Shown one piece after another: positions 49,268 through 64,000 of a stretch of DNA of 64,000 bases (position 1 is the first letter of the stretch; each line of letters begins with the position of its first letter). Origin of the DNA: an uncultured Cohaesibacter sp. (lineage in GTDB: Bacteria > Pseudomonadota > Alphaproteobacteria > Rhizobiales > Cohaesibacteraceae); NCBI RefSeq assembly GCF_963667045.1, contig NZ_OY762934.1:62001-126000 (forward strand), read 5' to 3'. The notes under the pieces are model-generated. The model was not told the DNA's origin and ran no database searches. It saw only the letters and a list, made by a program, of their open reading frames with translations. A program made the position numbers and the translations under genes.

Positions 49268-49523
49268 GCGCTTCTGCTAGATGGTAAGACCTCTGAGACC
49301 ACACCTCAAAGCAAAGAGAGAGCGTTTCCTCTGGCAGACGGTGCTTTCCTCTATGGGCCGATGATCGGCATCCGATCCGTGCCAAGCGGCATTTCTAAGC
49401 GGCTATTCTAGGGATTTCACCCGGTGCCTGGGCGTTGCAAGGGCCTGTTCTGCGTATCCAATAGGACTGCTCTTGCGTTCAAACGAGCCGGTCAAGCGGA
49501 TGGCTCAACCGGCCGTGAGGACC

Positions 49524-50237
49524 CTAATACTGACGCATCAGCCCGACGAGTTTGCCCTGAACGCGGACGCGGTCTGGCCCGAAAATCCGAGTTTCATAGG
49601 CAGGGTTGGCTGCTTCCAGTGCGATGGACGCCCCTTTCTTGCGAATGCGCTTTAGGGTCGCTTCCTCATCGTCCACGAGGGCGACAACAATATCGCCGGA
49701 AACCGCATCGTCGGACTTCTTGATGACGACCGTGTCGCCGTCCAGAATGCCAGCCTCAATCATCGAGTCACCACGCACCTCAAGGGCAAAGTGTTCACCG
49801 CCGCGTAGCATTTCGGCAGGAACGGAAATCGTATGTGATTGGTGCTGGATGGCAGAAATGGGAACACCTGCGGCGATGCGCCCCATGACCGGGACTGAAA
49901 TGCCGGTTCCTTCCCCTGCCATCTCTGGGGCGGCGGGTTCTTCACGGCGGGTCTTGCCAAGTCCACCTTCAACAACACTTGGAGAGAAGCCGCGAGACGG
50001 ACCTCCAAGGGTGGGTTTCAGGGATTCGGGCAGTTTGAGCACTTCCAGCGCACGGGCTCGGTTTGGCAGTCGGCGAATGAAACCACGCTCTTCCAGCGCT
50101 GTGATCAGACGGTGAATGCCAGACTTGGAACGCAGGTCAAGGGCGTCTTTCATTTCGTCGAAGGAAGGGGGAACGCCGGATTCCTTGATGCGTTCGTGAA
50201 TAAACATCAGCAGTTCATGCTGTTTGCGTGTGAGCAT
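49524..50237 (-). CDS. lexA: SOS response transcriptional repressor LexA
   Basis: A 237 aa repressor and self-cleaving protease of the SOS response. The N-terminal winged helix ([20 protein letters not shown] start; [20 protein letters not shown] recognition region) is followed by the Ala-Gly cleavage site in GRIAAGVPI, the catalytic Ser in [11 protein letters not shown] and the catalytic Lys in DTVVIKKSD. The start ATG at 50237 has a GGAGAGGGA site; an 18-residue upstream in-frame extension is unlikely. A LexA-type box lies 77 nt upstream. Confidence 0.96.
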
Positions 50238-50313
50238 TTCCCTCTCCAATTCCCGCGTGTTTTGTTCGCATGAGCGAAACATTAATGGCACAAATCACGA
50301 ACAAACTATACAT

Positions 50314-50328
50314 GTTCTTGCTGTGTTC
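50314..50328 (-). promoter_or_regulatory. LexA (SOS) box of lexA
   Basis: GTTC-N7-GTTC, the direct-repeat LexA site of alphaproteobacteria, occurs at GTTC 50314-50317 and GTTC 50325-50328. It lies 77 nt upstream of the lexA start and indicates autoregulation. Confidence 0.75.
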
Positions 50329-50750
50329 TGCAAGCAGGAATATGCCTGATATGCTGTTGCCGGACAAAGCCTTTTGGGCTTTGACGGGTGGTGGAAGGAT
50401 GGCTCGCTTGTAGCGCGTCATTGTCTGTAGCGTTTGAGCAAATGTCAACTCGAATGCATCGACATATCTGTGAGGGCCTGCTTATAACTATATGAGAAGA
50501 AATGCTTTTTCGGATCGAGGGCAAAGCCGTCAGGAGGTGGCGGCGATCATGTTTTTCTGGCTGTGAAATCGATGATGCGCTTTCCGATAGCCGTCAAATG
50601 TCCATCGGACGCTCGTCGCTGGAGTGGGGCATTCAATACCGCTCTCTTCCGGTTTTGATGGTGATGGGCGATGTTGGCTCGGTTCTAACCTGTCTGGATT
50701 TATCTTTTGCGCTTTGATTCTGTTCTTCATGATCCTCAATCACAGACATG
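50329..50750. other. Intergenic region between lexA and the curli locus
   Basis: About 420 nt with no supported gene. Short ORFs here lack ribosome-binding sites and family resemblance. It separates the conserved lexA neighbourhood from the curli locus. Confidence 0.4.
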
Positions 50751-50787
50751 AAAAAGCCACCAGCAGCCCGGAGCCGTTGGTGGCCTT
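50751..50787 (-). terminator. Terminator at the end of the curli locus
   Basis: On the minus strand a GCCACCA / TGGTGGC stem is followed by TTTTT. It lies about 30 nt after the stop of the last gene of the locus. Confidence 0.7.
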
Positions 50788-50815
50788 AAAACTGGCTGCC
50801 GTGTAGGACAGCAGG

Positions 50816-51541
50816 TTATACGCAGCCGTTCTTGAAGGTGATGATGGGCCAGCGTTGCTGACGGACGGTCTGCTTCTTGACCCAGGCATTGCCGTTTTCC
50901 GTTTTCACCTTGCACCACAGACCATCGGAGGCAACGGTGCACACCTCGGCACTGACGCAGGCATTGGGTTTCAGCACACCCTTGACGGCGGCGCTATTGC
51001 GCGGTTCTGCGCGTGCGTTGAGGTTTACGAGGATCTTGATGGGAGACGGCGACCCGATGGTTGCCGGTGGTGGGGTGAAGTCTTGCGGTGAAGCGCAGGT
51101 CTGGCTGTAGCCGATGTAGGAACATTCGATGGACTTGCGGGCCTGCTCGATCTTTTCAGCCACTTCCAGTCGCTCGAAGATGATCGGCAACTTGCTTTGC
51201 AGGATGGAACCGCTCATCCGTTCCTGATTGCCGCCGACCAGAGCGATGGCACTCTTGTCTGCGGCGACAAAGACCAACTGGTTGTTCTGGATCCGCCAGC
51301 CTGCGATGGCTGCAAGGGCGCCAGTGCAACCGGTCTTGGCAATAGGGAAGATGTCGTCTTTCAACTCACTGGAGAACTCGAAGATGCAGCTCTTCTGGTC
51401 GGAGAAGTTCCGATCATAGGTGATCCAACGGCCAGCGAAGGCCTTTGCCACTGCATTTGGGGTTTGAGCCAGAGCCGGGGACTGAGAAAGACAGCCCAGC
51501 CAGAGGAGAGTGGATGCGAAAACTGCGGTTAGCCTGATCAT
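50816..51541 (-). CDS. Secreted AprI/Inh-like plus SH3 domain protein
   Basis: A ~241 aa exported protein with a signal peptide (cleavage after SPALA, residue 25). Residues ~35-125 resemble the AprI/Inh protease-inhibitor fold: AGRWITY, a Cys pair (KSC and TGC), then IAGWRIQNNQLVFV and a glycine-rich strand. Residues ~165-235 resemble a bacterial SH3 domain (LNARAEPRNSAAV, GLWCKVKTENGNAWV). An in-frame GTG at 51568 overlaps the csgH stop (GTGA) with GGAGGA upstream, so the start may be there and translation coupled to csgH. A role in protecting or controlling curli is inferred from this linkage only. Confidence 0.65.
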   Translation of the reverse strand: MIRLTAVFASTLLWLGCLSQSPALAQTPNAVAKAFAGRWITYDRNFSDQKSCIFEFSSELKDDIFPIAKTGCTGALAAIAGWRIQNNQLVFVAADKSAIALVGGNQERMSGSILQSKLPIIFERLEVAEKIEQARKSIECSYIGYSQTCASPQDFTPPPATIGSPSPIKILVNLNARAEPRNSAAVKGVLKPNACVSAEVCTVASDGLWCKVKTENGNAWVKKQTVRQQRWPIITFKNGCV

Positions 51542-51564
51542 TGATTTCACCGATAAGAAATGGA

Positions 51565-52032
51565 TCACAAATGGTTTTTGTCCTCCGGCGCCGAAGTGCC
51601 GAAATCAAATTCTCGATTGGTGCTCTGAAGGAGCTTGTCGTTGGAAAAGAGGTCGAGCCGGGCGGTGACATGGTCGCCCGTCGACAAACGCAAGGAGACC
51701 TTGCCAGATGGATAGGTCTTGTCGCCGTTGACCGTTATCCTGTTGCTCTGTCTGGTGGTTGCCTTGCCGTTCGGCCCCGATTTGATGACTTCCAGGGTGG
51801 CGACATAGTCGCCGGGGACAACTGGTTGCAGAACGCCTGAAATGGTGAGTTGATCACCCGTGGTCTCAAAGACAAGGCTGGTCTCTGCTTGCTGGTCGGC
51901 GGCCATGGTTGATGTTCCCATGCTTGGGGTGACGGCAAGGCCGAGCAACAGCGACAGACGCATGGCCGGGCCAAGTCCCCGGCCAAGGCCGGTTGGAATT
52001 GTCTTTTGTGAAACGGGATGTCGCAAGGTCAT
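51565..52032 (-). CDS. csgH: CsgH-like curli chaperone
   Basis: A 155 aa exported protein. The mature part (from about residue 45) fits the CsgH family, a small periplasmic beta-sandwich known in alphaproteobacteria to inhibit premature CsgA fibre formation: SLVFETTGDQLTISGVLQP, a GDYVATLEVIKSGPNGKATT core and a late strand pattern. ATG 52032 is the first start; ATG 51963 (MRLSLLLGLAV) would give a cleaner signal peptide. It lies directly after the curlin genes, which strengthens the call. Confidence 0.7.
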   Translation of the reverse strand: MTLRHPVSQKTIPTGLGRGLGPAMRLSLLLGLAVTPSMGTSTMAADQQAETSLVFETTGDQLTISGVLQPVVPGDYVATLEVIKSGPNGKATTRQSNRITVNGDKTYPSGKVSLRLSTGDHVTARLDLFSNDKLLQSTNREFDFGTSAPEDKNHL

Positions 52033-52043
52033 GCTCCCCCAAT

Positions 52044-52061
52044 CCCTGCCCGAAGGCAGGG
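52044..52061 (-). promoter_or_regulatory. Hairpin between the 242 aa curlin gene and csgH
   Basis: A perfect 7 bp stem (CCCTGCC / GGCAGGG) with a CGAA tetraloop lies 16 nt after the upstream stop. No U-run follows on the minus strand. Confidence 0.55.
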
Positions 52062-52077
52062 CCGGGCGTTGGAAGGA

Positions 52078-52806
52078 TCAGAACTGGACTTGCGTAATGC
52101 TGACGGACGCGCCGTTTGTCGACACGGTGACCGGTTGGGTCGTCGTTACGCCATTGGCATAGAGCGTATAGGTCACATTGGCACCGTCGACACCGGTGGC
52201 GGATGTGGCATTGCCCTGTGCCACCAACTGGCTGTCATTGTTGGAGCCGACCTGCGTCAAGGCCGCGGTGACATTGTTGCCATCCACAGTGATGGTGCCG
52301 TTGTTGTCCGATCCGTTTTGCAGGATTGTGCCATTGGAAAGGCTGCCGTCAATGCTGACCTCGGCATTGTTGCCAGCGCCGGTCTGCACGACTGCCGCAA
52401 AGGAAGGCGCACCCGCTCCGGAGTTGACATAGATATCGGCATTGTTGCCCGTTGCCTGTCCCTGACTGTTCTGCTGCAGGTAGACCACGTCATCCTGCCC
52501 CTCGATCGTAATATTGGCGCTGTTGTTGTCGCCCAACTGCAGGATCGGATGGTTGGTTGCTTCATTGAGGCTCAGAGGGTTTGAAAGATCGAGCACCTCG
52601 AACTCGGAATTTTCAAGCGCTGGCTTTTCGATGAAGTTCACACCACCGATCTGACTGCCGATTGCTGTCTGCTGATCGATGGAAATGGTGTTTCCGGCAC
52701 CCTCCTGAAGCAGGATCAGGGTGTTTTCGTCACCGGCCTGAGCGGTCGAAAGCGGAAGCCCCGCAAGGGATAGTGCGAGAGCGCCCAAATAAAAGGCTTT
52801 GTTCAT
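52078..52806 (-). CDS. Curlin-repeat protein (242 aa)
   Basis: A secreted curlin with a signal peptide (MNKAFYLGALALSLAGLP, cleavage after AQA). Curlin-type units are visible (LQLGDNNSANI, VVQTGAGNNAEVSI, LQNGSDNNGTI, LTQVGSNNDSQL). It ends VSITQVQF, unlike the large family members. It is close in size to the CsgA/CsgB class and could be the minor subunit or nucleator. It has a GAGGAGA site inside the loop of an inverted repeat. Confidence 0.8.
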   Translation of the reverse strand: MNKAFYLGALALSLAGLPLSTAQAGDENTLILLQEGAGNTISIDQQTAIGSQIGGVNFIEKPALENSEFEVLDLSNPLSLNEATNHPILQLGDNNSANITIEGQDDVVYLQQNSQGQATGNNADIYVNSGAGAPSFAAVVQTGAGNNAEVSIDGSLSNGTILQNGSDNNGTITVDGNNVTAALTQVGSNNDSQLVAQGNATSATGVDGANVTYTLYANGVTTTQPVTVSTNGASVSITQVQF

Positions 52807-52833
52807 GTGCCAGTCTCCTCATTCATTGGCACA
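52806..52833 (-). promoter_or_regulatory. Inverted repeat around the ribosome-binding site of the 242 aa gene
   Basis: TGTGCCA / TGGCACA arms flank a loop that contains the GAGGAGA ribosome-binding site. It could modulate translation. Confidence 0.35.
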
Positions 52834-52841
52834 GAATGACC

Positions 52842-53351
52842 CTAGAATGATCTTTGCGAGATGTTGATGCTGTTGTTGCTGCCCATCTGGCTGAAGCTCA
52901 CGTGGTTATTCTGTCCATATTGCTGCACGGCGGCCTGATTACCTGTGCCCTCGATAGAGGCCTGAAGCGAGTTGTGCGCTCCATTTTGCAGGAAGGAGAA
53001 CAGATTGCTGTTGCCGCTGACATTCACAATCATGCTGTTGTCGAACCCTTCCTGGATCAATTCTCCCGGCTGAAGCCCACTTTTGAGCGTCACGCCCGAA
53101 AAGATGGAACCATTTGCGCCGCCGTTGTTGTTTCCCTCGATGGTGATGTCCATCAGATTTTCGCTCCAAGCGCCAAAAGCAAAGTCCTGAGTGAGGCTCA
53201 GGCTATTGTTGTCGCCGGTGATGTTCATCTCAATGACATTTCCATCCAGATTCGCGTCATCAAGTAATTCGATTACATTCGTCTCCGCATATGCCTGAGT
53301 GGCCATGCTCAAGAGGAGGGTTGTTGCCAAAGCCGTCAGTTGTTTTTGCAT
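52842..53351 (-). CDS. Curlin-repeat protein (169 aa)
   Basis: A secreted curlin with a signal peptide (MQKQLTALATTLLLSMA, cleavage after AYA) and the size of E. coli CsgA (about 150 aa). Units such as ITGDNNSLSLTQ, IEGNNNGG, QEGFDNSMI, QNGAHNSLQ, QYGQNNHVS and QMGSNNSIN are seen. It ends INISQRSF. The segment LQPGELIQEGFDN matches the C-terminal module of the large curlins. It may be the CsgA- or CsgB-like subunit. Confidence 0.85.
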   Translation of the reverse strand: MQKQLTALATTLLLSMATQAYAETNVIELLDDANLDGNVIEMNITGDNNSLSLTQDFAFGAWSENLMDITIEGNNNGGANGSIFSGVTLKSGLQPGELIQEGFDNSMIVNVSGNSNLFSFLQNGAHNSLQASIEGTGNQAAVQQYGQNNHVSFSQMGSNNSINISQRSF

Positions 53352-53512
53352 ATCCCTGTTCCTTTGCTTTCAACTGAAGCCAGTAGAACAGGGAAATCTT
53401 TAATGAGCTTTTATGTGAACCTCTTGAGTGTTCCGTTTGGGCCTTTTCTTGATGACAGAGTGAATCCTATCTTAAATCCTGTGGTAGAAAAATTCAACAG
53501 TACAACCTATTT

Positions 53513-55066
53513 CTACTGTAAGATGATAACCTGGTTGTAATTGCCCGACTGGCGGTAGTAAGCATAGTTGTCGCCACCGGTCTGGATGACAGCTGACTGG
53601 TTGGATGAGCCATGAATGGCGCCATCGATGACGTTCTGATCACCAGACTGGGAAAAGGCGAATTTGTTGAAACTGCCCTCGCTGATCTGCACGAAGGCGA
53701 TATTGAGGTTGCCTGTCTGAATGGCCTGACCGGGTGTGAGGGTGCCTGCCGCGCTGAGCACAACATCCGTGAACCCGCCCAGCGCCGTGTCATTATTCTG
53801 ATCACTGCGGGTGAGGGGGCTGACGCTGCCGTCAAAGGCGATCGACATGGTGTTGTCATCGCCAGTCTGCACGGCGTTCAGCTCATTGTCCTTGCCGCGA
53901 TAGGAGACGGCCAGCGTGTTGCGGTCTCCACTCTGGGAAAAATTCAGCCGGTTACCGTCACCGATCTGTAGCGCAGCCACCTCGTTCTCCGTTCCGTCGG
54001 TGGTGCCGCTCAGCCAGTTGCCATCGCCATCCTGCACGAAGCCGAAGACCGTCATCGAAGAAACGCCCGAGGTCACGAAGTTGAGCGTGTTGTCATCACC
54101 GAGCTGCTTGATTTCCGCCTGCGCGACGGCCAGATGTTTGGTGATGGCGTGGGTGAATTGTCCAAGACCACCGAACCCATCGCCGCCGTTGTCATCCCCG
54201 CCAAGCTGAACGGTGGCAAGGTTGCCCGCCACGCTGACGAGATCATTGTTCTGAATGAGGGAAAGCAGCAAGTTGCGAGACCCGGTCATGGTGACTGCCG
54301 TCCTGTTGCTGCTGCCGATCTGGTTGAAGCTGGAGATCAGGTTGTCCATGCCCGCCCGTTGCAGGATGGAGGCCTCGTTGGAAAGCCCGTATTGCAGGAA
54401 GGTGTCTATGGCGTTGCCGCGATACTGTTGTGTGATATCGACGCGGTTTGCACTGCCCTCCTGAACCAGACGGTTGATGCTGTTGCCATCATCACTATTG
54501 TTTCCGCCGTCATATTGCCAGATCGTGGCAACGTTAGGGGACAGGGAGGTTGCCGTCTGAATTTGCTGGATCTCGCCGATGAAGTGATTGCCCTGACCGT
54601 CGCCAGAGCCATCGGTGCCATCAAGGGCGTTGTGGCTCTGAATGATGGTGAGGCTGTTGCTGCGCGTTGAGGCATAGGTAGCGGGCGACACCTGAGAGAT
54701 GGCGCCAATCTGGTTGATGCCAGCGGCGCTGTCGTTTTCCTGCGTGATCTCGAGATTATTCAGTGCGCCGGTCTGGTAGAGACCCTGCAGGCCGAGGCTC
54801 CCGGACGATGCCCGCGCCCCGGCTTGGTTGCTGTATCCCGTCTGAGAAATCGTCATCTCGTTGCTGATGCCCTGCTGGGAGATGAAAATCTGCCTGTCAT
54901 CGGCGCCGATCTTGTTGGCATCACCAAGCTGGTTGATGTCGATGACGTTGGTAACGCCGGTCTGCCCGAGATAGACCTCGTTTTCATCAGCCAAAGCCGC
55001 CGTCGCGCATGTGGCCATGGCGAGGGTCAGCGCTGCATTCTGCACAAGATGACGGGTCTTTTTCAT
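53513..55066 (-). CDS. Large curlin-repeat protein (517 aa)
   Basis: A signal peptide (MKKTRHLVQNAALTLAMA, cleavage after LADE region) is followed by curlin units through the whole length, including LGQTGVTNVIDINQLGDAN, ISQQGISNEMTISQTGYSN and LQIGDGNRLNFSQSGDRN. It ends YNQVIILQ. Its N-terminus and ribosome-binding site (AAAGGCAGAC) differ from the other four large genes, so it is a more distant paralogue. Being over three times the size of CsgA, it is predicted to form an unusually long amyloid subunit. Confidence 0.87.
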   Translation of the reverse strand: MKKTRHLVQNAALTLAMATCATAALADENEVYLGQTGVTNVIDINQLGDANKIGADDRQIFISQQGISNEMTISQTGYSNQAGARASSGSLGLQGLYQTGALNNLEITQENDSAAGINQIGAISQVSPATYASTRSNSLTIIQSHNALDGTDGSGDGQGNHFIGEIQQIQTATSLSPNVATIWQYDGGNNSDDGNSINRLVQEGSANRVDITQQYRGNAIDTFLQYGLSNEASILQRAGMDNLISSFNQIGSSNRTAVTMTGSRNLLLSLIQNNDLVSVAGNLATVQLGGDDNGGDGFGGLGQFTHAITKHLAVAQAEIKQLGDDNTLNFVTSGVSSMTVFGFVQDGDGNWLSGTTDGTENEVAALQIGDGNRLNFSQSGDRNTLAVSYRGKDNELNAVQTGDDNTMSIAFDGSVSPLTRSDQNNDTALGGFTDVVLSAAGTLTPGQAIQTGNLNIAFVQISEGSFNKFAFSQSGDQNVIDGAIHGSSNQSAVIQTGGDNYAYYRQSGNYNQVIILQ

Positions 55067-55109
55067 GGGTCTGCCTTTCTGGAACGGGCATCAATGCCTG
55101 TGAAATGCG

Positions 55110-55132
55110 GGATGGGCGCGGATCGTCCATCC
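55110..55132 (-). promoter_or_regulatory. Hairpin after the 616 aa curlin gene
   Basis: A GGATGG / CCATCC stem with an 11 nt loop lies 24 nt after the stop. It is weaker than the hairpins after the other large genes. Confidence 0.4.
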
Positions 55133-55156
55133 TGTTGTTGCCAGCGTCTGTGGCTG

Positions 55157-57007
55157 TTACTGGCTGATGCCTACGATGTTCATCGAGCCGACCTGCGCAA
55201 CCTGAGAGCTGTTGGCGTTGCCCTGCTGACTGATCGCCACTTCGTTGCTGTCGCCTGCGGTGATTGAAATGTCGATCATGTTGCCGTCGCCATTCTGCAC
55301 GGTGGCCACGAGGTTGCTGGAGCTGATGAACCCGCTATCGCCAATAGCCAGCGTCAGAGCGTTGCCGGAACCGGACTGGCTCAGATAGCCGCTATCAAGC
55401 AGCAGCGACGCAGCCGCGCCACCGACGGACCATGTGCCCATGCCGTTGTCGTTGCCATAGATTGTGGTCGACAGGCCGTTGCCAGCACCAAGCATCTGGG
55501 TTGCGTCGAAGCTGTTGCCGTCGCCAAGGATGGTAAAGGCCGTCGAGCTGGCAGACGTGGTGTTTTGGTTAGAGCTGATGGTGTTGGTCTGGCCAGTGAT
55601 GCCCACTGTAAGGGTGTCGTTGCTGCTGACTTGCTGCAGGTTTTTCACATTGTTGCCGTTGCCTGTCACCGTGACGGTGACAGAGCTGTCAGAGCCACCG
55701 TCCTGCTGGTCGCTGCGGATTTCGTTACGGTCGCCTGTCACCGTGATTGTTGCCAGGTTGTCCTTGGCATAATGGTTCTGATAGGTGAAGTTCTTGTTGC
55801 TGTTACCGGTGATGGAGACAGTGGCGCTGTTTCCGCTGGCGGTCTGCTGAGTGCTGGAATAGTTGAAATCGCCAACGGTCGTTGTGCGGGCAAACTCGCC
55901 ATCGCCATATTGTCGGACGTAGAGGTGGTTGTTGGCACGCAGCTTGTCACTGGAGGTGACCTCAATTTCGGCGTCGTTGTCGGTGGTGCTGGCAGCATAC
56001 TGCTCGATGGAGAGGCGGTTATAGTCGCCAGTTGTGGCCGTGATCTTGGCTGTCGCTCCATTCTGCTGAATCAGCTTCGCCCAGTTGCTGTCGCTGCTGC
56101 TCCCCAGAGAGATGGTGCCGGTGTTGCTGCCATAGCCCTGTTGGCTGACGCCGACGCTGTTGTCGTCGCCGATGATCTCCTGAATGGTCAGCGTGTTGGC
56201 ATCGGTGGCGGAATGGGCAATCTGGGAAACACCCAGTTCGTTGCGATCCCCTTCCACCTTCAGGGTGTTGATGCTGTTGGTGCCGCCAGACAGATTGGTC
56301 TGGGTTGCGCCGAACTGGTTATCGTCGCCGGTGACATAGAGCTTGATCTCGTTGTCGCTGCCAGACTGGATGATCTCACTGCTATTGACGCCGCTATTGT
56401 TTGCGTAGTTGGTCAACGTGTCGGACGTGCCATTGCCATTGCCCTCGATCTTGATGACCAGACTGTTGGTACCACTCCCGTTGTTATTCTGGGAGACGGA
56501 CTTAATCCGGTTTCCGGCGCCGTCCTGCCAAAGGATGGCCCGGTTTTCACCATTGGCGGAGGTTTCCTGCAGAACAGAGCCAATGGTGTTGGCGTTGCCG
56601 ACCTGCTGTTTGATGCGCAGATCGTTGATGCCATCGGCACCTGCGGCGGTGCTCTCAATCTGCTGGACCGAGCCGATGATGTTGTCGTCAGTGGCCTGCA
56701 ATGCCTCAAAACTGTTGTTTGCACCGGTCTGGTCGACGCCGTCGCCGAGAAGGCCGATGGCGTTGTCGCTACCGCTTTGGGTCACGTCAAGGCTGTTGGA
56801 GGAGCCGTTCTGGAGAACAGCGTCGCTGGCGCTGCCCAACTTGTTCCGGTCGGCTGTCCCGCCGGCGCTGGTCTGATCCACCGACGCTGCGTTGTTGTTG
56901 CCCGACTGTGCAATGAATGCCCCATTGCTGGCAGCGTAGGCCAGGCTGGCCATGGCGATCGAGCCGGTTGCAGCGGTTGCCAGCACTGCCAAACGAATTC
57001 TAGTCAT
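55157..57007 (-). CDS. Large curlin-repeat protein (616 aa)
   Basis: The longest curlin in the window. A signal peptide (MTRIRLAVLATAATGSIAMA, cleavage near AYA) precedes continuous curlin repeats. Two turn types alternate: QxGxxN (for example LQNGSSN, TQSGSDN) and [IV]xG[DN]xN (for example VTGDDNQF, VEGDRNEL, IIGDDNSV), with the spacing seen in CsgA. A conserved C-terminal module starts at about residue 510 and ends MNIVGISQ. Roughly 20-25 repeats are estimated from length. GGAGAC ribosome-binding site. Confidence 0.87.
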   Translation of the reverse strand: MTRIRLAVLATAATGSIAMASLAYAASNGAFIAQSGNNNAASVDQTSAGGTADRNKLGSASDAVLQNGSSNSLDVTQSGSDNAIGLLGDGVDQTGANNSFEALQATDDNIIGSVQQIESTAAGADGINDLRIKQQVGNANTIGSVLQETSANGENRAILWQDGAGNRIKSVSQNNNGSGTNSLVIKIEGNGNGTSDTLTNYANNSGVNSSEIIQSGSDNEIKLYVTGDDNQFGATQTNLSGGTNSINTLKVEGDRNELGVSQIAHSATDANTLTIQEIIGDDNSVGVSQQGYGSNTGTISLGSSSDSNWAKLIQQNGATAKITATTGDYNRLSIEQYAASTTDNDAEIEVTSSDKLRANNHLYVRQYGDGEFARTTTVGDFNYSSTQQTASGNSATVSITGNSNKNFTYQNHYAKDNLATITVTGDRNEIRSDQQDGGSDSSVTVTVTGNGNNVKNLQQVSSNDTLTVGITGQTNTISSNQNTTSASSTAFTILGDGNSFDATQMLGAGNGLSTTIYGNDNGMGTWSVGGAAASLLLDSGYLSQSGSGNALTLAIGDSGFISSSNLVATVQNGDGNMIDISITAGDSNEVAISQQGNANSSQVAQVGSMNIVGISQ

Positions 57008-57210
57008 TTGATGTCTCCAATATTCTACTCATGACTTGCATGCGTCTGGATCTTGCCTGGGCTGCGTTCGTGACGGGTGCAGCGTTTGAGTGCTCTGAAA
57101 TGAATCGTAAAAAGCAAAACTCTGCCCTGATCTGATGCTGAGTTGACCCTGAGCGGGAGCGACCGGTCTGCCACGTTCCTTTCAGGACCTTCGACCTTAA
57201 GGCAAAGGGA

Positions 57211-57236
57211 TGGTTGGGCGGCGTGCCGCCCAACCA
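57211..57236 (-). promoter_or_regulatory. Hairpin after the 512 aa curlin gene
   Basis: A perfect 12 bp stem (TGGTTGGGCGGC / GCCGCCCAACCA) closes 24 nt after the stop. No U-run follows on the minus strand. Confidence 0.6.
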
Positions 57237-57260
57237 TGTTTCAATGAATTGGCATCGCGC

Positions 57261-58799
57261 TTACTGGGTTACGCCAACAACGTTGGAAGACCCGATCTGC
57301 GTGATGTTGGAATAGTTGCCATTGCCGCTCTGCAACAGAGCGACCTGGTTGTCGTTGCCTTCGGAAATGCTGATCACGGCTTCGTTGCTGTTGCCGCTTT
57401 GGGTCAGCGCGAAGGCGTTGTTGTTGCTATCGCTCGTCGAAGACCCGACGTTGATGGTGACCAGGTTGCCATAGCCGGTCTGGATCAGTTCCCCTGCTAC
57501 AAGACCGGTGGCCCCGGCAACACCGGCACCGTCAAAGCTGGCGCTGTTGTTGCTGTTGCCATAGATGGTGGCATTGAGGGTGTTATCAGTACCGGCTGCC
57601 GAACCGGACTGCGACGTTTTCAGCAGGTTGGAGCTGCCGGTCGCGTTGATGGTCAGCTGGTTGTTGTCTTCCTGCGTCAGATCGAAATTGTTGCCGTCAC
57701 CGGAAAAGATGGTAACAGATGCCAGGTTGGTTCCGGTTTGGGACAGGCCAATCTGGTTGTTGTTGGAATTGGTTTTCAGGTCGATGGTGCCTTGGTTGCT
57801 CCCCAACTGGGAGACACCGATGTTGTTGCCATCGCCAATGATCGAGCTGATGGTCAGCTGGTTGTGATTGCCAGCAACGCCGTCTGCATCCTGTGAAACA
57901 CCGAGCTGGTTGTCATTGCCCGTGATCGTCAGCGCCTGCAGCGTATTGCGACCGCCGCCAAAGTTGGTCTGGCTGACGCCAAAGGCGTTGTTGTTGCTGG
58001 CACCGGTGATGTTGAGGGTGATCGAGTTGTCAGCCCCGAACTGGTTCAGTTCGCTGGTTGTGGCACCCGAAGACAGGGCATAGCCGGTGAGGGCGCTGGT
58101 GCCGTTGTTCGTGCCGCTGATGTTGGCGATGATGCTGTTGATTGCAGTGGTCGCACCAGCAGTATTGACGCCGATCTGGTTGATGGCGGCGATCTTGTTG
58201 TTGGAGCCGGTCTGCGTGATGGAGGCATAATTCTGCTTGTCGGAGGAGGTTGCCTGCATCACCTGCGACACCTCGTTACCCGAGCCGCCCAGTTGGGTGA
58301 TCTCAAGGGTATTTTTCAGGGCGCCGGTCGGACGGACGGCAAGCTGGACAACGCCACCGATGACATTGCCACCGACTTTCTGAACCGCCGTGAATTCGTT
58401 GTTGTCACCGATCTGGGCGATGCCGGAGGTGGCGTCGCTGTCGAAATCTTCGGCTGGTATACCCCACGCTGCGCGATTGAGTGATGCGCTGCCATCAAGG
58501 CGATGAATGATTTCGTCGAGCTGGTTGAAGCGGTTCGCAATGAGACCAGCCTGGTTGCCCGTGCCCTCCTGCAGGACATCGATGCTGTTACCATTGCCCA
58601 TTTGAAGGGCGGCGCTGGTGTCGCTGGCTCCAGTGCTGTTGAACTGGTTACTCTGTCCTGCGCTCTGGTTGATCCTGGCAGCGTTGCTCTGGCCTTCCTG
58701 ACGGATTGCCGCCTCGTTGCCCCCAGCGGCATAGGCATAGCCAACACCGATAACACCTGATGCAACGGCAGCCATAAGTGCCAAACGAATTCTAGCCAT
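57261..58799 (-). CDS. Large curlin-repeat protein (512 aa)
   Basis: A signal peptide (MARIRLALMAAVASGVIGVG, cleavage after AYA) is followed by curlin repeats. I count ten strict QxGxxN turns (among them QEGQSN, QMGNGN, QIGDNN, QFGADN, QTGYGN, QSGNSN) plus alternating [IV]xG[DN]xN turns. A less repetitive patch of about 45 residues (DEIIHRLDGSASLNRAAW area) interrupts the N-terminal third. It ends SNVVGVTQ. Same GGAGACAACAAATG start context as the 462 aa gene. Confidence 0.87.
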   Translation of the reverse strand: MARIRLALMAAVASGVIGVGYAYAAGGNEAAIRQEGQSNAARINQSAGQSNQFNSTGASDTSAALQMGNGNSIDVLQEGTGNQAGLIANRFNQLDEIIHRLDGSASLNRAAWGIPAEDFDSDATSGIAQIGDNNEFTAVQKVGGNVIGGVVQLAVRPTGALKNTLEITQLGGSGNEVSQVMQATSSDKQNYASITQTGSNNKIAAINQIGVNTAGATTAINSIIANISGTNNGTSALTGYALSSGATTSELNQFGADNSITLNITGASNNNAFGVSQTNFGGGRNTLQALTITGNDNQLGVSQDADGVAGNHNQLTISSIIGDGNNIGVSQLGSNQGTIDLKTNSNNNQIGLSQTGTNLASVTIFSGDGNNFDLTQEDNNQLTINATGSSNLLKTSQSGSAAGTDNTLNATIYGNSNNSASFDGAGVAGATGLVAGELIQTGYGNLVTINVGSSTSDSNNNAFALTQSGNSNEAVISISEGNDNQVALLQSGNGNYSNITQIGSSNVVGVTQ

Positions 58800-58996
58800 T
58801 TGTTGTCTCCAAAATGATGTTTGCCCGTGTATCGACCCGGCTTCAGGTCCTGTCCGTCGCTCGAGGTCAAGGAATCGATTGCAACCTTTGATTTCATATA
58901 ATCAATGATGCAATCTTTACTTTATGTTCACCATAATTGTCAACCTGAGGTGGAGGGGGGAGCCACTTGCCCTTTGGTTGTGGTTGGTACTGTGAA

Positions 58997-59024
58997 GGGT
59001 GGGCGGAGATACGCCGCCCAACCC
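58997..59024 (-). promoter_or_regulatory. Hairpin after the 466 aa curlin gene
   Basis: A GGGT-GGGCGG / CCGCCC-A-ACCC stem with one bulged base closes 28 nt after the stop. It shares the GGGCGG core with the other two strong hairpins. Confidence 0.5.
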
Positions 59025-59048
59025 TGGCTTGAAAAGTGGTGCCCGCTG

Positions 59049-59766
59049 CCGCTTACTGGCTGATGCCAACGACGTTGTCGGAGCCGACCTGTGTGACGGA
59101 CGAGCTGTTGCTGTCACCGGTCTGGGAAATGGCGACCTGGTTGGCGTTGCCAGCCGAGATGTCGATGGCGATGCTGTTGCTGTCGCCGATCTGGGCAAGA
59201 GCCAGCACGTTGTTGGCGCTGAAGCTGCTGGACGAACCGACAGAAACATGAGCGGTGTTGTCGAGGCCGGTCTGGGTGAGGGTACCTGCCGTCAGGCCAA
59301 CATCATGGGCCACATTCCCGCGCCAGCTGCGCAGACCGTTGGAATTGCCATAAACCGAGAGGGTCAATTCGTTCTGCGCACCGATCAGCGTGCCATTTGG
59401 TGTCGTCTGGTTGATGGTGAAGTTGTTGAAGTTGCCTTCTACATCTGCATCCAGCAGGTTGGTGCCGATCTGGGTGGCATAGATTTCGTTGAAGCTGCGG
59501 GCCACGGCAATGTCGGCACTGTTGGTGCCGTCCTGCACCAGTGAGATGCTGTTGTCGCTGCCATTGCTGATGGAGACGGTGCCGGTGTTGTCGCCAGACT
59601 GATGCAGCAGGACCATGTTGCGGTTGCTGGTGGTGTCCAGATTGATGGTGCCGGTGTTGGCGCCATACTGATAGGCACCGATGTTGTTGTCGTCACCATT
59701 GATGGCGGCGATGGTCAGGCTGTTGAGGCCAGCAGCGGTCGATTCCTGATAGACGCCAAGCTGGTT
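59049..59766. repeat. Near-identical block, copy 1 (curlin 3' half)
   Basis: This block matches 60695-61412 at a constant offset of 1646 bp with only scattered substitutions and no indels seen. It covers the last ~235 codons of the 466 aa gene and stops sharply 4 nt past the stop codon. Confidence 0.85.
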
Positions 59767-60453
59767 GTCGCTACCATCGATGGCTAGGGCGGAAAGGCTG
59801 TTGGTCCCCTTCTGGGTCACGCCGAACTGGTTGTGATCACCAGTGATAGACAGGCTGATATCATTGCCTGTGCCATCCTGCAACAGAGTGCCGTTGGACG
59901 CAGTTGATGCGGCGGCATAGCCTGTGAGCTTCTGCTGGATCCAACTGGTTCCGGACGGAGTGGTTTCCGGCAGATAGGTTGAACCGTTTGCTGCACCGAC
60001 GATCGAGACCGAGATGGTGTTGGCAAGGGAGCCGGTGTTGTTCTGAGTGACGCGGTCAATACGGTTGTTGCCGCCGTCTTCCAGAATTGTTGCGCTGTTG
60101 GAGCCGTCGGCATTCACTGTCTGCTTGAGATTGACGACGCGGTTCACGTTACCCGTCTGCTGGGTGATGACTGCTTCGTTGCTGCCGGTGCCCAATTCTG
60201 AATTCTGAACAGCCCGGTTGACGGTGCTGTAACCGCCGGATTGCGTGACGGTGAGAGTGTTCGAGGCGCTGTCCGTATCGTTGGTCTGGGTTGCGTTGGT
60301 TGTATTGAAGCGCCCCCCGAGCTGATTGACTTCAGCTGAGTTGCTGTTACCGGACTGGGTGACATTTGCTTTGTTACTGTCAGCAAAGGCATATCCGGAA
60401 GTGATAGTCATTGTGGCAACTGCGGCCATGAGCGCTATGCGTGTTCTGGTCAT
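59053..60453 (-). CDS. Large curlin-repeat protein (466 aa), paralogue 1
   Basis: ATG 60453 (MTRTRIALMAAVATM) follows a TTGGAGACTC site; an 18-codon in-frame extension upstream is not supported. Signal peptide cleavage is near AFA. Curlin repeats fill the protein and it ends DNVVGISQ. From QLGVYQESTAAG to the C-terminus it is almost identical to the 462 aa paralogue (three differences noticed in ~230 residues), while the N-terminal half is clearly diverged. Confidence 0.88.
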   Translation of the reverse strand: MTRTRIALMAAVATMTITSGYAFADSNKANVTQSGNSNSAEVNQLGGRFNTTNATQTNDTDSASNTLTVTQSGGYSTVNRAVQNSELGTGSNEAVITQQTGNVNRVVNLKQTVNADGSNSATILEDGGNNRIDRVTQNNTGSLANTISVSIVGAANGSTYLPETTPSGTSWIQQKLTGYAAASTASNGTLLQDGTGNDISLSITGDHNQFGVTQKGTNSLSALAIDGSDNQLGVYQESTAAGLNSLTIAAINGDDNNIGAYQYGANTGTINLDTTSNRNMVLLHQSGDNTGTVSISNGSDNSISLVQDGTNSADIAVARSFNEIYATQIGTNLLDADVEGNFNNFTINQTTPNGTLIGAQNELTLSVYGNSNGLRSWRGNVAHDVGLTAGTLTQTGLDNTAHVSVGSSSSFSANNVLALAQIGDSNSIAIDISAGNANQVAISQTGDSNSSSVTQVGSDNVVGISQ

Positions 60454-60655
60454 TTTGAGTCTCCAATAAATGTGTTTTCGCCATCCCATACATTCAGTCA
60501 GGGGCAAAAGGTTGCAGGGCGTGTCTTCCGATCACGTCGAGTCATCGTTTGTTCGGATCACGACTGTTCCGAGTTATCCGTATTCCCGCATGGCAAGGGC
60601 GGTTGCCTGAACAACCGGTTGCACGAAGCGCCTCACGATGAAGGAGCGAATGTCT

Positions 60656-60677
60656 GGCCGGGCGGGACCGCCCGGCC
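60656..60677 (-). promoter_or_regulatory. Hairpin after the 462 aa curlin gene
   Basis: A 10 bp perfect inverted repeat (GGCCGGGCGG / CCGCCCGGCC) with a GA centre closes 21 nt after the stop. No U-run follows on the minus strand. Confidence 0.6.
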
Positions 60678-60694
60678 ATGGAGATGCTGATGTA

Positions 60695-61412
60695 CCGCTT
60701 ACTGGCTGATGCCAACGACGTTGTCGGAGCCGACCTGTGTGACGGACGAGCTGTTGCTGTCGCCGGTCTGGGAAATGGCGACCTGGTTGGCGTTGCCCGC
60801 CGAGATGTCGATGGCGATGCTGTTGCTGTCGCCGATCTGGGCAAGAGCCAGAACGTTGTTGGCGCTGAAGCTGCTGGACGAACCGACAGAAACGGTTGCG
60901 GTGTTGTCGAGGCCGGTCTGGGTGAGAGTGCCTGCCGTCAGGCCAACATCATGGGCCACGGTACCGCGCCAGCTGCGCAGACCGTTGGAATTGCCATAAA
61001 CCGAGAGGGTCAATTCGTTCTGCGCACCGATCAGCGTGCCATTTGGTGTCGTCTGGTTGATGGTGAAGTTGTTGAAGTTGCCTTCTACATCTGCATCCAG
61101 CAGGTTGGTGCCGATCTGGGTGGCATAGATTTCGTTGAAGCTGCGGGCCACGGCAATGTCGGCACTGTTGGTGCCGTCCTGCACCAGTGAGATGCTGTTG
61201 TCGCTGCCATTGCTGATGGAGACGGTGCCGGTGTTGTCGCCAGACTGATGCAGCAGGACCATGTTGCGGTTGCTGGTGGTGTCCAGATTGATGGTGCCGG
61301 TGTTGGCGCCGTACTGATAGGCACCGATGTTGTTGTCGTCACCATTGATGGCGGCGATGGTCAGGCTGTTGGGGCCAGCAGCGGTCGATTCCTGATACAC
61401 GCCAAGCTGGTT
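60695..61412. repeat. Near-identical block, copy 2 (curlin 3' half)
   Basis: The partner of 59049-59766. The flanks outside the block are unrelated, which fits gene conversion or a mosaic duplication. Confidence 0.85.
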
Positions 61413-62087
61413 GGAGTCACCGACGATGGACAGGGCGGAAAGGCTGTTGGTGCCTTTCTGGGAAACGCCGAACAGGTTATCGTCACCGGTGATGGACAGG
61501 GTGATGTCGTTGTCGGTGCCATCCTGCGAGACGACGCCATTGGAAGCCGTTGTGGCGGCTGCATAGCCGGAAAGGGCTGACCATACCACGCTGCCGGTAG
61601 CCTGAGAGTTGGTGTAGCCGTTGCGTCCGCCTACGAGGTCGATGGATATGGTGTTGTCTGATGCTCCCGTGTTGGTCTGGCTGACCGAACGGATGGAGTT
61701 GTTATAGCCGGTTTCGGTGATGCTGGCCGTGTTCGAGCCGGCGTCGGTCACTGTCTGGGCAAGACCGCGGATGTTGTTGGCGGTGCGGCCCTGCTGCAGA
61801 ATGTCCGCGGAGTTGCTGCCTGTGCCGGACGAGGCATCCTGAACGACGCCCGCTGCATAGCTCCACGCGGATTTCTGTTCGATTGTCAGCGTGTTTGAAT
61901 TGCTGTCGGTATCATTGATCTGCTTGACATAAGCCCTGCTTTTGTCTGCTTCGTCCTGAATGATCGAGGCCGAGTTCTGGTTTCCGCTCTGATCAACCTT
62001 GGCCTCGTTGCTTGCTGCGTAGGCATGGCCTGAAGAGATAGCTGCAGTGGCAACCGCTGCCATGAGTACCAAACGGGTTTTGGTCAT
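60699..62087 (-). CDS. Large curlin-repeat protein (462 aa), paralogue 2
   Basis: A signal peptide (MTKTRLVLMAAVATAAISSG, cleavage after AYA) and curlin repeats throughout, ending DNVVGISQ. A GGGAGACAAC ribosome-binding site precedes the ATG. It is the first curlin gene after csgG and follows an AT-rich, promoter-like stretch. Its C-terminal half is nearly identical to the 466 aa paralogue. Confidence 0.88.
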   Translation of the reverse strand: MTKTRLVLMAAVATAAISSGHAYAASNEAKVDQSGNQNSASIIQDEADKSRAYVKQINDTDSNSNTLTIEQKSAWSYAAGVVQDASSGTGSNSADILQQGRTANNIRGLAQTVTDAGSNTASITETGYNNSIRSVSQTNTGASDNTISIDLVGGRNGYTNSQATGSVVWSALSGYAAATTASNGVVSQDGTDNDITLSITGDDNLFGVSQKGTNSLSALSIVGDSNQLGVYQESTAAGPNSLTIAAINGDDNNIGAYQYGANTGTINLDTTSNRNMVLLHQSGDNTGTVSISNGSDNSISLVQDGTNSADIAVARSFNEIYATQIGTNLLDADVEGNFNNFTINQTTPNGTLIGAQNELTLSVYGNSNGLRSWRGTVAHDVGLTAGTLTQTGLDNTATVSVGSSSSFSANNVLALAQIGDSNSIAIDISAGNANQVAISQTGDSNSSSVTQVGSDNVVGISQ

Positions 62088-62111
62088 TTGTTGTCTCCCA
62101 TATGAATTTCT

Positions 62112-62324
62112 TTGTTAAAAATTGATGCCACCACCCGGGGCGATCCCCCTTTTTGCACCCCTCGTACTGACGATATGTGCAACCAATGATTATTAAAAAG
62201 CGGCAATACAACTCATTTACCTCTCCTTAACTTTGAAAGTCAATATGGAAGAAAACAATTTATTAAAACTGTAATTACTTTCGAATTTGTTGGTAAAATT
62301 AGGTGGTTAATGTATGTTTTGAAA
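62112..62324. other. AT-rich region upstream of the first curlin gene
   Basis: AT-rich sequence without a gene lies between the csgG terminator and the 462 aa curlin gene. It probably holds a promoter for the curlin genes on the minus strand. No specific regulator site is recognised. Confidence 0.45.
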
Positions 62325-62358
62325 TAAAAAGGCCGAGGAATAAATACTTCCTCGGCCT
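62325..62358 (-). terminator. Intrinsic terminator after csgG
   Basis: On the minus strand a perfect 10 bp stem (GGCCGAGGAA / TTCCTCGGCC, 7 nt loop) is followed by TTTTTATTT. It lies about 36 nt after the csgG stop. Confidence 0.85.
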
Positions 62359-62393
62359 ATTCAACCTAATACAACTAAAAATTATAAATTCAC

Positions 62394-63464
62394 TCAGCCA
62401 AGTGGTTCTTCATTATTTGAGTGTGGTGGAGGAAGCCTTCTTGTTGTTTGTCTTACTGGTTGTGTTGGTTGTGGCTTCTGACTGATCACAATCCTCGGAA
62501 CTGTTGTTGAAATGGCGGTGGCATTTTTCGTCTCCGGCGGCAGCATGGCCGGGGACGCGGCGTCCTTTGCATCCTTGTATTGTTCTGACTTCAGGTTTTT
62601 TACATAGGACGTGCCATTTCCGGGATCCTTGAACTGCCAGATATCGAGTTCGACGCCTTCAACGATCAGGGCTTCAACGGCCTTTTCGACTGCGGCCTCA
62701 AGGGCGATCTGGCTTGGTTCGTTGCTGGTAAAGCCACCTTCTGCCTGCAGCAATTCGTCAAGCTTGACGTAGCGGAACACCGAGGCTTGCAGTCCGACCG
62801 AGACGACAGTCTTTCGGGCGGTCACGGTAGTCAGGACTTCGCCGGTCTTTGTGGAAATGGCCCTGAGCGAAACCGTGATCTCATCCTTGGAATAGTCGCT
62901 GTCGCCGGTAATGCCGAGATAAGACGCACCAAGGCCACCTGTCTGAACATTGTGGTTGTAGCCGATGATGCCACCCTCGATGATGATTGCGGCGTGCTTG
63001 AGCGGTGGCAGGACACTGGCGTTGACTTTTTCCTCGCCGCGGTAAAGCCGGCGCATCTCGGTGATGATCTGGCGTTCCTTGAGCAGGTCGGCCAGCTTGT
63101 TGCGTTCCATGACGGTAAACCAGCGACGATTGCCTGCATCCTGCAGAGCCTTGATCAGGATGGCGACGCCGCCCTGTGTCACGACTCGTGACAGTTGCTG
63201 ATAATTTGCCGCCTCGCGATATTGCCCGGTTTCGTCCTTGAAGTCATAGACGGCGACGGGGATTCGCTGCTTGGGAGCCGGGATGTTCCTCAGCCGCAGA
63301 TTGACTTCGCTGACTTCGGCCACCCGCGGGGCTTCCGTCATCAGGGACTTGTTGGTCGCACAGCCCGCAAGGGTGATCATGGCGAGGAGAACAGGGGCTG
63401 CCAGACGTTTGCCGACACCATGTTTCGTTCCTGACCGGATTCGGAGAGTATCATTCATTTTCAA
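62394..63464 (-). CDS. csgG: Curli secretion pore CsgG with extended C-terminus
   Basis: The outer-membrane lipoprotein channel that secretes curli subunits. A lipobox (LAGC) follows a signal sequence; ATG 63458 is an in-frame alternative to 63464. CsgG hallmarks are VAVYDFKDETGQYR, FTVMERNKLADLLKERQII, IIEGGIIGYNHNVQTGGLGA, YLGITGDSDYSKDEITVSLR and FTSNEPSQIALEAAVEKAV. The protein is 356 aa versus about 277 in E. coli; most of the excess is a Pro/Gln/Thr-rich tail after IWQFKDPG, likely periplasmic. Confidence 0.95.
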   Translation of the reverse strand: MKMNDTLRIRSGTKHGVGKRLAAPVLLAMITLAGCATNKSLMTEAPRVAEVSEVNLRLRNIPAPKQRIPVAVYDFKDETGQYREAANYQQLSRVVTQGGVAILIKALQDAGNRRWFTVMERNKLADLLKERQIITEMRRLYRGEEKVNASVLPPLKHAAIIIEGGIIGYNHNVQTGGLGASYLGITGDSDYSKDEITVSLRAISTKTGEVLTTVTARKTVVSVGLQASVFRYVKLDELLQAEGGFTSNEPSQIALEAAVEKAVEALIVEGVELDIWQFKDPGNGTSYVKNLKSEQYKDAKDAASPAMLPPETKNATAISTTVPRIVISQKPQPTQPVRQTTRRLPPPHSNNEEPLG

Positions 63465-63473
63465 AACCAGAGG

Positions 63474-63920
63474 CTAGTTTGTAACCAACTGCGGAACTTC
63501 GATATGGGTCACTGTTCCATCGGTGAAGTCTGTGATCACGAGAGATATGGAATCTGTCGTCTGGTTGAAGGTGATTTCCGTGTCCCCAAAGGTGATGGTG
63601 CCGTTTTCCTGCGGGTCGTCCCCAAAGATGGCTTCTGTAACCTGACTGGCGAGAGCGGAAAGCAGACGGCTTTGCAGCTGGCTGACAAACAGATCGGCTG
63701 CGGTATTGTCGGTGTTTCCGCTGTCGGTTCCTCCGCTGGAGCTGGACTTGTTTGCATCACTCGCTGTTGCCGATCTTTGGGCGCTTGCAATGGAGAGCAG
63801 ATGAGACGAGTTGTACGGGCTGCCGCCGAACGTCGGATTGACCGGCGTATAGACAAGCTCTGATGCGTGGGCTGTGCTTGCCGCAAGGAGCAGGCCAACT
63901 AAAGTAATCGCTTTTCTCAA
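63474..63920 (-). CDS. csgF: Curli assembly factor CsgF
   Basis: A 148 aa exported protein that binds CsgG and couples secretion to nucleation. The mature N-terminus ELVYTPVNPTFGGSPYNSSH matches the CsgF segment that plugs into the CsgG pore (FGG-x-P-x-N motif). A Ser/Gly/Asn-rich linker is followed by the QLQSRLLSALASQ helix and a C-terminal beta domain. TTG 63920 is chosen because AGGAGA lies 7 nt upstream and it gives a clean signal peptide; ATG 63968 is the longer alternative. csgG begins 9 nt after its stop. Confidence 0.9.
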   Translation of the reverse strand: MRKAITLVGLLLAASTAHASELVYTPVNPTFGGSPYNSSHLLSIASAQRSATASDANKSSSSGGTDSGNTDNTAADLFVSQLQSRLLSALASQVTEAIFGDDPQENGTITFGDTEITFNQTTDSISLVITDFTDGTVTHIEVPQLVTN

Positions 63921-64000
63921 TTCAATGTCTCCTGAGCCAAGGCCTGGCGATCCCGGATGGTTTGTCATAAGCCTGTCGAGGTACCCGGCATTCTGGGAAC

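Follow-up and report, generated by a model that had tools for sequence, protein, structure and literature searches.

A csgH-type curli locus with seven curlin genes, four of one long subunit type, in an uncultured Cohaesibacter

Curli are the standard example of a functional amyloid, and systems unlike that of Escherichia coli raise the questions of subunit length, of survival in the periplasm and of co-assembly. According to Dueholm 2012 (PMC3521004), CsgA measures about 152 amino acids (aa) in Enterobacteriales, CsgA homologues reach 529 aa and 22 repeats, and Alphaproteobacteria are without csgC, csgD and csgE; Sleutel 2023 gives maxima of 30 curlin copies in one genome and 62 repeats in one protein, and describes the CsgA of Pontibacter korlensis as a regular solenoid of 15.5 repeats. 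In this work, we describe a curli locus of an uncultured marine Cohaesibacter sp. (Hyphomicrobiales, Alphaproteobacteria; assembly GCF_963667045.1, a single contig of 5.24 Mb, NZ_OY762934.1), contained in a stretch of 64,000 nucleotides (bases 62001-126000 of the contig), hereafter the window, to which all coordinates refer unless a locus number precedes them. The locus (50816-63968, minus strand) looks intact and represents an extreme case of a system already described, to which a conserved accessory gene and exchange of segments between subunit genes are added. Since long and multiple curlins were already in print (2012, 2023), it is extreme in degree and not new in kind; the original prediction had pointed to the multiplicity and size of the subunits as what stands out.

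All genes lie in the same direction and follow one another, in order of transcription, as csgF, csgG, seven curlin genes named from G to A, csgH and a gene for a 250-aa protein. CsgF (63474..63968, 164 aa; PF10614, E 5.7e-33) and the outer-membrane pore CsgG (62394..63464, 356 aa; PF03783, E 1.5e-57) score over the cut-offs of their families, as do 7 out of 7 curlins with PF07012: G (60699..62087, 462 aa, 54.8 bits), F (59053..60453, 466 aa, 54.1 bits), E (57261..58799, 512 aa, 40 bits), D (55157..57007, 616 aa, 41.4 bits), C (53513..55066, 517 aa, 42.5 bits, with a weak match to PDB 8c50, E 0.002), the CsgB-sized B (52842..53351, 169 aa, 25.7 bits) and A (52078..52806, 242 aa, 25.1 bits). For curlin F, translation from a TTG at 60507 would give 484 aa; the ATG giving 466 aa opens a signal peptide common to the paralogues. 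The anti-aggregation chaperone gene csgH (51565..52032, 155 aa) starts 45 bases downstream of curlin A; its product is recognized by NCBIfam NF041112 (E 5.2e-12, 45.7 bits, cut-off 35) and matches the CsgH structure PDB 2n59 (E 0.0069), but the Pfam CsgH model remains below cut-off (15.7 of 27). The last gene (50816..51568), absent from the list of the original prediction, overlaps csgH by 4 bases and belongs to the locus; it encodes a predicted secreted, Inh-like plus SH3b protein, of 250 aa from a GTG start, with an in-frame ATG at residue 10. Judged from these sequences, the locus is a csgH-type alphaproteobacterial curli system (type VIII secretion). The predicted csgF, csgG and csgH-like genes and the co-directional curlin genes, seven in number and five of them of 462-616 aa, were thus all recovered, and the interpretation originally attached to them is, as a whole, partly supported.

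Genome-wide, one CsgG was found and no curlin was detected outside the locus, so that a second curlin or CsgG locus was rejected. The ratio of nonsynonymous to synonymous substitutions (dN/dS), computed in pairs against up to three related species, is 0.035-0.394 for the ten locus genes with orthologues; curlin F, with no orthologue in those related loci, gives 0.37 against its neighbour. Because these values fall in the purifying range, the locus genes are more than chance; being below 1, they also led us to reject pseudogenes.

The set was compared with the other loci of the genus, 14 in all (the window plus L023-L035), csgG being present in 14 of 18 genus genomes; the CsgG of one relative, G003, is 97% identical to that of the window. 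Gene order is constant throughout, and seven is the highest curlin number among the 14 loci. The seven curlins correspond to four subunit types, D, C, B and A, the first comprising curlins G, F, E and D. Only the D type varies in number, with four genes in the window versus 1-3 in the 13 other loci: one in six, two in four (one of which has a copy split in two open reading frames, ORFs) and three in three. Curlin C is about 515 aa long in nearly all of them, and curlin B is missing in 2 out of 14. Two genes are interrupted, from sequencing error or decay: the curlin E orthologue of L026 (L026:14005-15626), split into two ORFs, and csgG of L035 (L035:15898-16961), likewise split into two.

A wider count, based on motifs and bounded by contig ends and 10-kb flanks, covered the best 80 of 105 public csgG loci, the first three being genus genomes already counted. 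By number of curlin ORFs, these 80 loci divide into 0 (5 loci), 1 (8), 2 (42), 3 (10), 4 (8), 5 (3), 6 (1) and 7 (3), the last three being those of Pseudaminobacter (L067), Salegentibacter (L105) and Nitrospinaceae (L108). By number of curlins of at least 450 aa, the division is 0 (51 loci), 1 (15), 2 (10), 3 (2) and 4 (2); no locus (0/80) reaches the five of the window. In Brevundimonas (L080), Asticcacaulis (L082) and Microvirga (L116), a curlin-like ORF of 1110, 1022 and 1046 aa, respectively, is found at no more than 10 kb from csgG.

Relatives were typed with profiles built from the genus genes. In Aurantimonas (L066, L068) and Pseudaminobacter (L067), these recovered the D, C, B and A types next to csgF, csgH and the last gene. 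Rhizobium terrae and Mesorhizobium (L069, L072) have no distinct C, D being the best-scoring type for each of their two long subunits; the genus profiles did not find curlin B in L070, L071, L073 and L074, nor csgH in L075. Within the genus the D-type genes follow csgG, an arrangement also seen in L066, L068, L071 and L073. In a tree built from 26 D-type proteins (of 27 aligned, L035 was left out), groups of 9 rows for curlin D, 7 for E and 4 for G/F are well supported. As single copies are found both near G/F (L031-L034) and within the D lineage (L030), losses of D-type genes are as possible as gains, and repeated duplication from a single ancestral D gene is only one possible origin.

Curlins F and G form a mosaic. 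Their 5' halves share 55% protein identity, with a synonymous divergence (dS) of 1.33 over 228 codons, while the 3' halves share 98.7%, with a dS of 0.068 over 234 codons; between G and its L023 orthologue, dS is 0.120 in the 5' part and 0.108 in the 3' part. The F stretch identical to G covers five successive 60-base windows (59339..59638, minus strand; longest exact block 345-349 bases) and is flanked on either side by near identity; in the tree, the N-terminal half of F sits on a long terminal branch (0.67 changes per column) and its C-terminal half is near-identical to G. The contrast in dS between the halves points to gene conversion, which would date from around the split from the L023 species or from a later time. 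An assembly artefact was rejected, the genome being in one contig and the 5' half of F having diverged on its own. A second case is found in curlin D, which shows 38-66% identity to its L023 orthologue at codons 300-500 and 74-96% on either side, whereas its identity to L024 remains at 76-100%. Conversion between curlin genes is not described in the titles and abstract starts of the curli papers listed by literature searches. Paralogous curlins sharing exact blocks of about 100 bases, possibly by conversion, were also seen in Methylobacterium (L107) and Nitrospinaceae (L108).

We regard it as probable that the locus produces a composite amyloid, that is, csgH-type curli with long D-type subunits, diversified by conversion and assisted by a protective Inh-SH3b protein. 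Unfolded curlin subunits would cross the periplasm, where CsgH would prevent early aggregation, and leave through the CsgG pore; at the cell surface, CsgF would take part in their nucleation. Nucleation or anchoring of the fibre would probably fall to the short subunits A and B, and the C and D-type subunits (462-616 aa) would build it by co-assembly as beta-solenoids of about 19-26 rungs, a figure that assumes one repeat for every 23 aa of length. Changes in D-type copy number (1-4) and overwritten D-type segments could then alter fibre length, stiffness and surface, the export machine remaining unchanged. The Inh-SH3b protein, probably periplasmic and perhaps a peptidoglycan-bound protease inhibitor, would guard long unfolded subunits awaiting CsgG. 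The fibres may serve adhesion between cells or to surfaces; a role in cell aggregation is plausible, the genus name referring to cells that stick together.

A bolder version, which we put forward tentatively and consider rather doubtful, is that of a modular, evolvable amyloid. Here a fixed core for export and nucleation (csgF, csgG, C, B, A and csgH) would be combined with a D-type cassette, varying in number and swapping segments to retune the fibre. The system's own periplasmic protease inhibitor, with its wall-binding SH3b domain, would act as an extra Csg component, enabling export of very long unfolded subunits without CsgE.

Several results weigh against the composite amyloid. In six relatives the D-type genes precede csgF, with the strand shared in L069, L070 and L072 and opposite in L067, L074 and L075; the variable subunits can therefore be a separate unit. 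The structure model of curlin G is all-beta, and VIA-align, used as a second look after Foldseek, gives PDB 8c50 as its best match; the rmsd (root-mean-square deviation), however, is 8.4 A, and Foldseek found nothing significant in the PDB (8c50 at E 0.97). On the accessory protein the Inh model reaches 17.8 of 25 and SH3_3 25 of 27, both below the Pfam cut-offs; protease inhibition is suggested at the level of the predicted fold. CsgE (PF10627) has 0 matches in the genome, in a search whose E. coli control was positive. Exact paralogue blocks of at least 60 bases occur in 3 of 31 loci, window included, these being the loci with at least two curlins of at least 300 aa after removal of L062 (Cohaesibacter haloalkalitolerans), L063 and L064, repeats of L023, L029 and L034, although others may still repeat a genome. 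Conversion is therefore occasional, and a universal conversion engine was rejected.

The accessory protein is the part of the composite amyloid for which the strongest alternative can be proposed. Its model shows fold matches to U-Omp19 and to SH3b domains, and a copy of its gene occurs at 13 of the 14 nearest csg loci; the remaining locus is truncated where its contig ends. A single-sequence search of the class matched 2 of 289 genomes, its own and a weak one; csg-linked relatives were found by profiles. A profile search of 385 class genomes matched 18: its own at full length, G403 at profile positions 53-231 (E 3.6e-13, L143), G099 with an Inh part (one stop inside) plus an SH3 part, G133 with an Inh part (one stop inside), and 14 genomes with an SH3 part only. 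The G403 match lies on another contig than the weak CsgG match of that genome. The accessory gene is not described in the titles and abstract starts of the curli papers listed by literature searches, and the words SH3, inhibitor and hypothetical are absent from the main text of Dueholm 2012 (PMC3521004). The linkage to csg loci, with csgH as the adjoining gene, and the absence of a CsgE match in the genome would also suit another chaperone against aggregation, in addition to CsgH, or a protein that anchors the export complex to the wall. Binding to the wall is frequent among SH3b domains, and a beta-barrel of the Inh type can serve other binding roles. We therefore take this alternative seriously, while considering it somewhat less probable than not when set against protease inhibition.

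Co-assembly, too, has a competitor, in which the subunits do not mix and each long curlin forms its own fibre, or is made in circumstances particular to it, with the CsgG pore used in common. The spacer that separates csgG from the first subunit gene contains a terminator-like hairpin (62330..62358, minus strand; 11 pairs, 7 of them G-C, and a T-rich tail). A script whose score and line at 23 are our own choice was run on 14 spacers between csgG and the subunits (window, L023-L034 and L051, L035 being left out), and found a score of at least 23 in 8, window included, a weak hairpin in 2 and none in 4. These hairpins suggest that export genes and subunits may be expressed in part separately. 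Spacers of 245-253 bases between D-type genes could hold separate promoters, and curlins D, E and G are strongly different (33-55% identity by band). Against this, sigma-70-like sites are about as numerous as chance would give (6 versus 5.6 expected), and the C-terminal ends of the paralogues are among their most alike parts (52%), as expected for stacking, although self-stacking would fit as well. On balance, separate fibres appear rather unlikely.

A D-type array acting as a cassette whose recombination varies the cell surface, for instance against phages or predators recognizing the fibre, would account for the F/G mosaic, for the inner block of curlin D, unlike its L023 orthologue where both sides agree, and for a copy number of 1-4 within one genus; we deem it improbable, exact blocks being confined to the 3 loci mentioned and dN/dS being below 1, though as whole-gene averages. 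That the additional D copies arose recently by neutral duplication and have no separate function is more improbable still, for several species retain the D and E lineages, with dN/dS values (0.13-0.35) that indicate purifying selection, even if F occurs in the window only among the 14 genus loci, single-copy species exist and the E copy of L026 is split.

Other features of the region can be listed briefly. Rfam detected no family at gathering level in 49000-64000. Tandem Repeats Finder (47000-64000) returned one weak array (58172-58226), the curlin repeats being therefore too diverged in DNA for that tool. A 489-aa open frame runs antisense to curlin D (55565-57034, plus strand), and antisense open frames of at least 80 aa are also found opposite other curlin genes; they probably result from the codon usage of the repeats.

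Four diverged, recombining copies of one long subunit offer a natural series for fibre mechanics, and the Inh-SH3b gene is a candidate for the protection step in systems without CsgE. Among known systems, the Hfa proteins anchoring the Caulobacter holdfast presumably provide, as here, a CsgG-like pore in an alphaproteobacterium; the window CsgG scores 187.9 bits with the curli CsgG model versus 37.5 with HfaB, both below the NCBIfam cut-offs. With the E. coli csgBAC-csgDEFG system the locus shares the CsgG pore, CsgF, curlin repeats and an anti-aggregation chaperone (CsgC there, CsgH here); it differs in the lack of a CsgE match in its genome, in having all genes in one direction and in its subunits of 462-616 aa. 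The P. korlensis CsgA (PDB 8c50), the best VIA match of the curlin G model, also carries curlin repeats, but is a regular solenoid, whereas the repeats of the window subunits are irregular and contain inserts. Compared with U-Omp19 and the Inh inhibitors (PDB 7mhw, 1smp chain I, 1jiw chain I), the window protein adds an SH3b domain and is encoded in a curli operon, its inhibitor role being predicted. Closest are the alphaproteobacterial csgH-type curli, as described in Dueholm 2012 (PMC3521004), with which the locus has csgG, csgF, csgH and curlin subunits in common, and likewise no CsgE match in the genome; it stands apart from them by its seven subunits, four of one long type, and by its Inh-SH3b gene.
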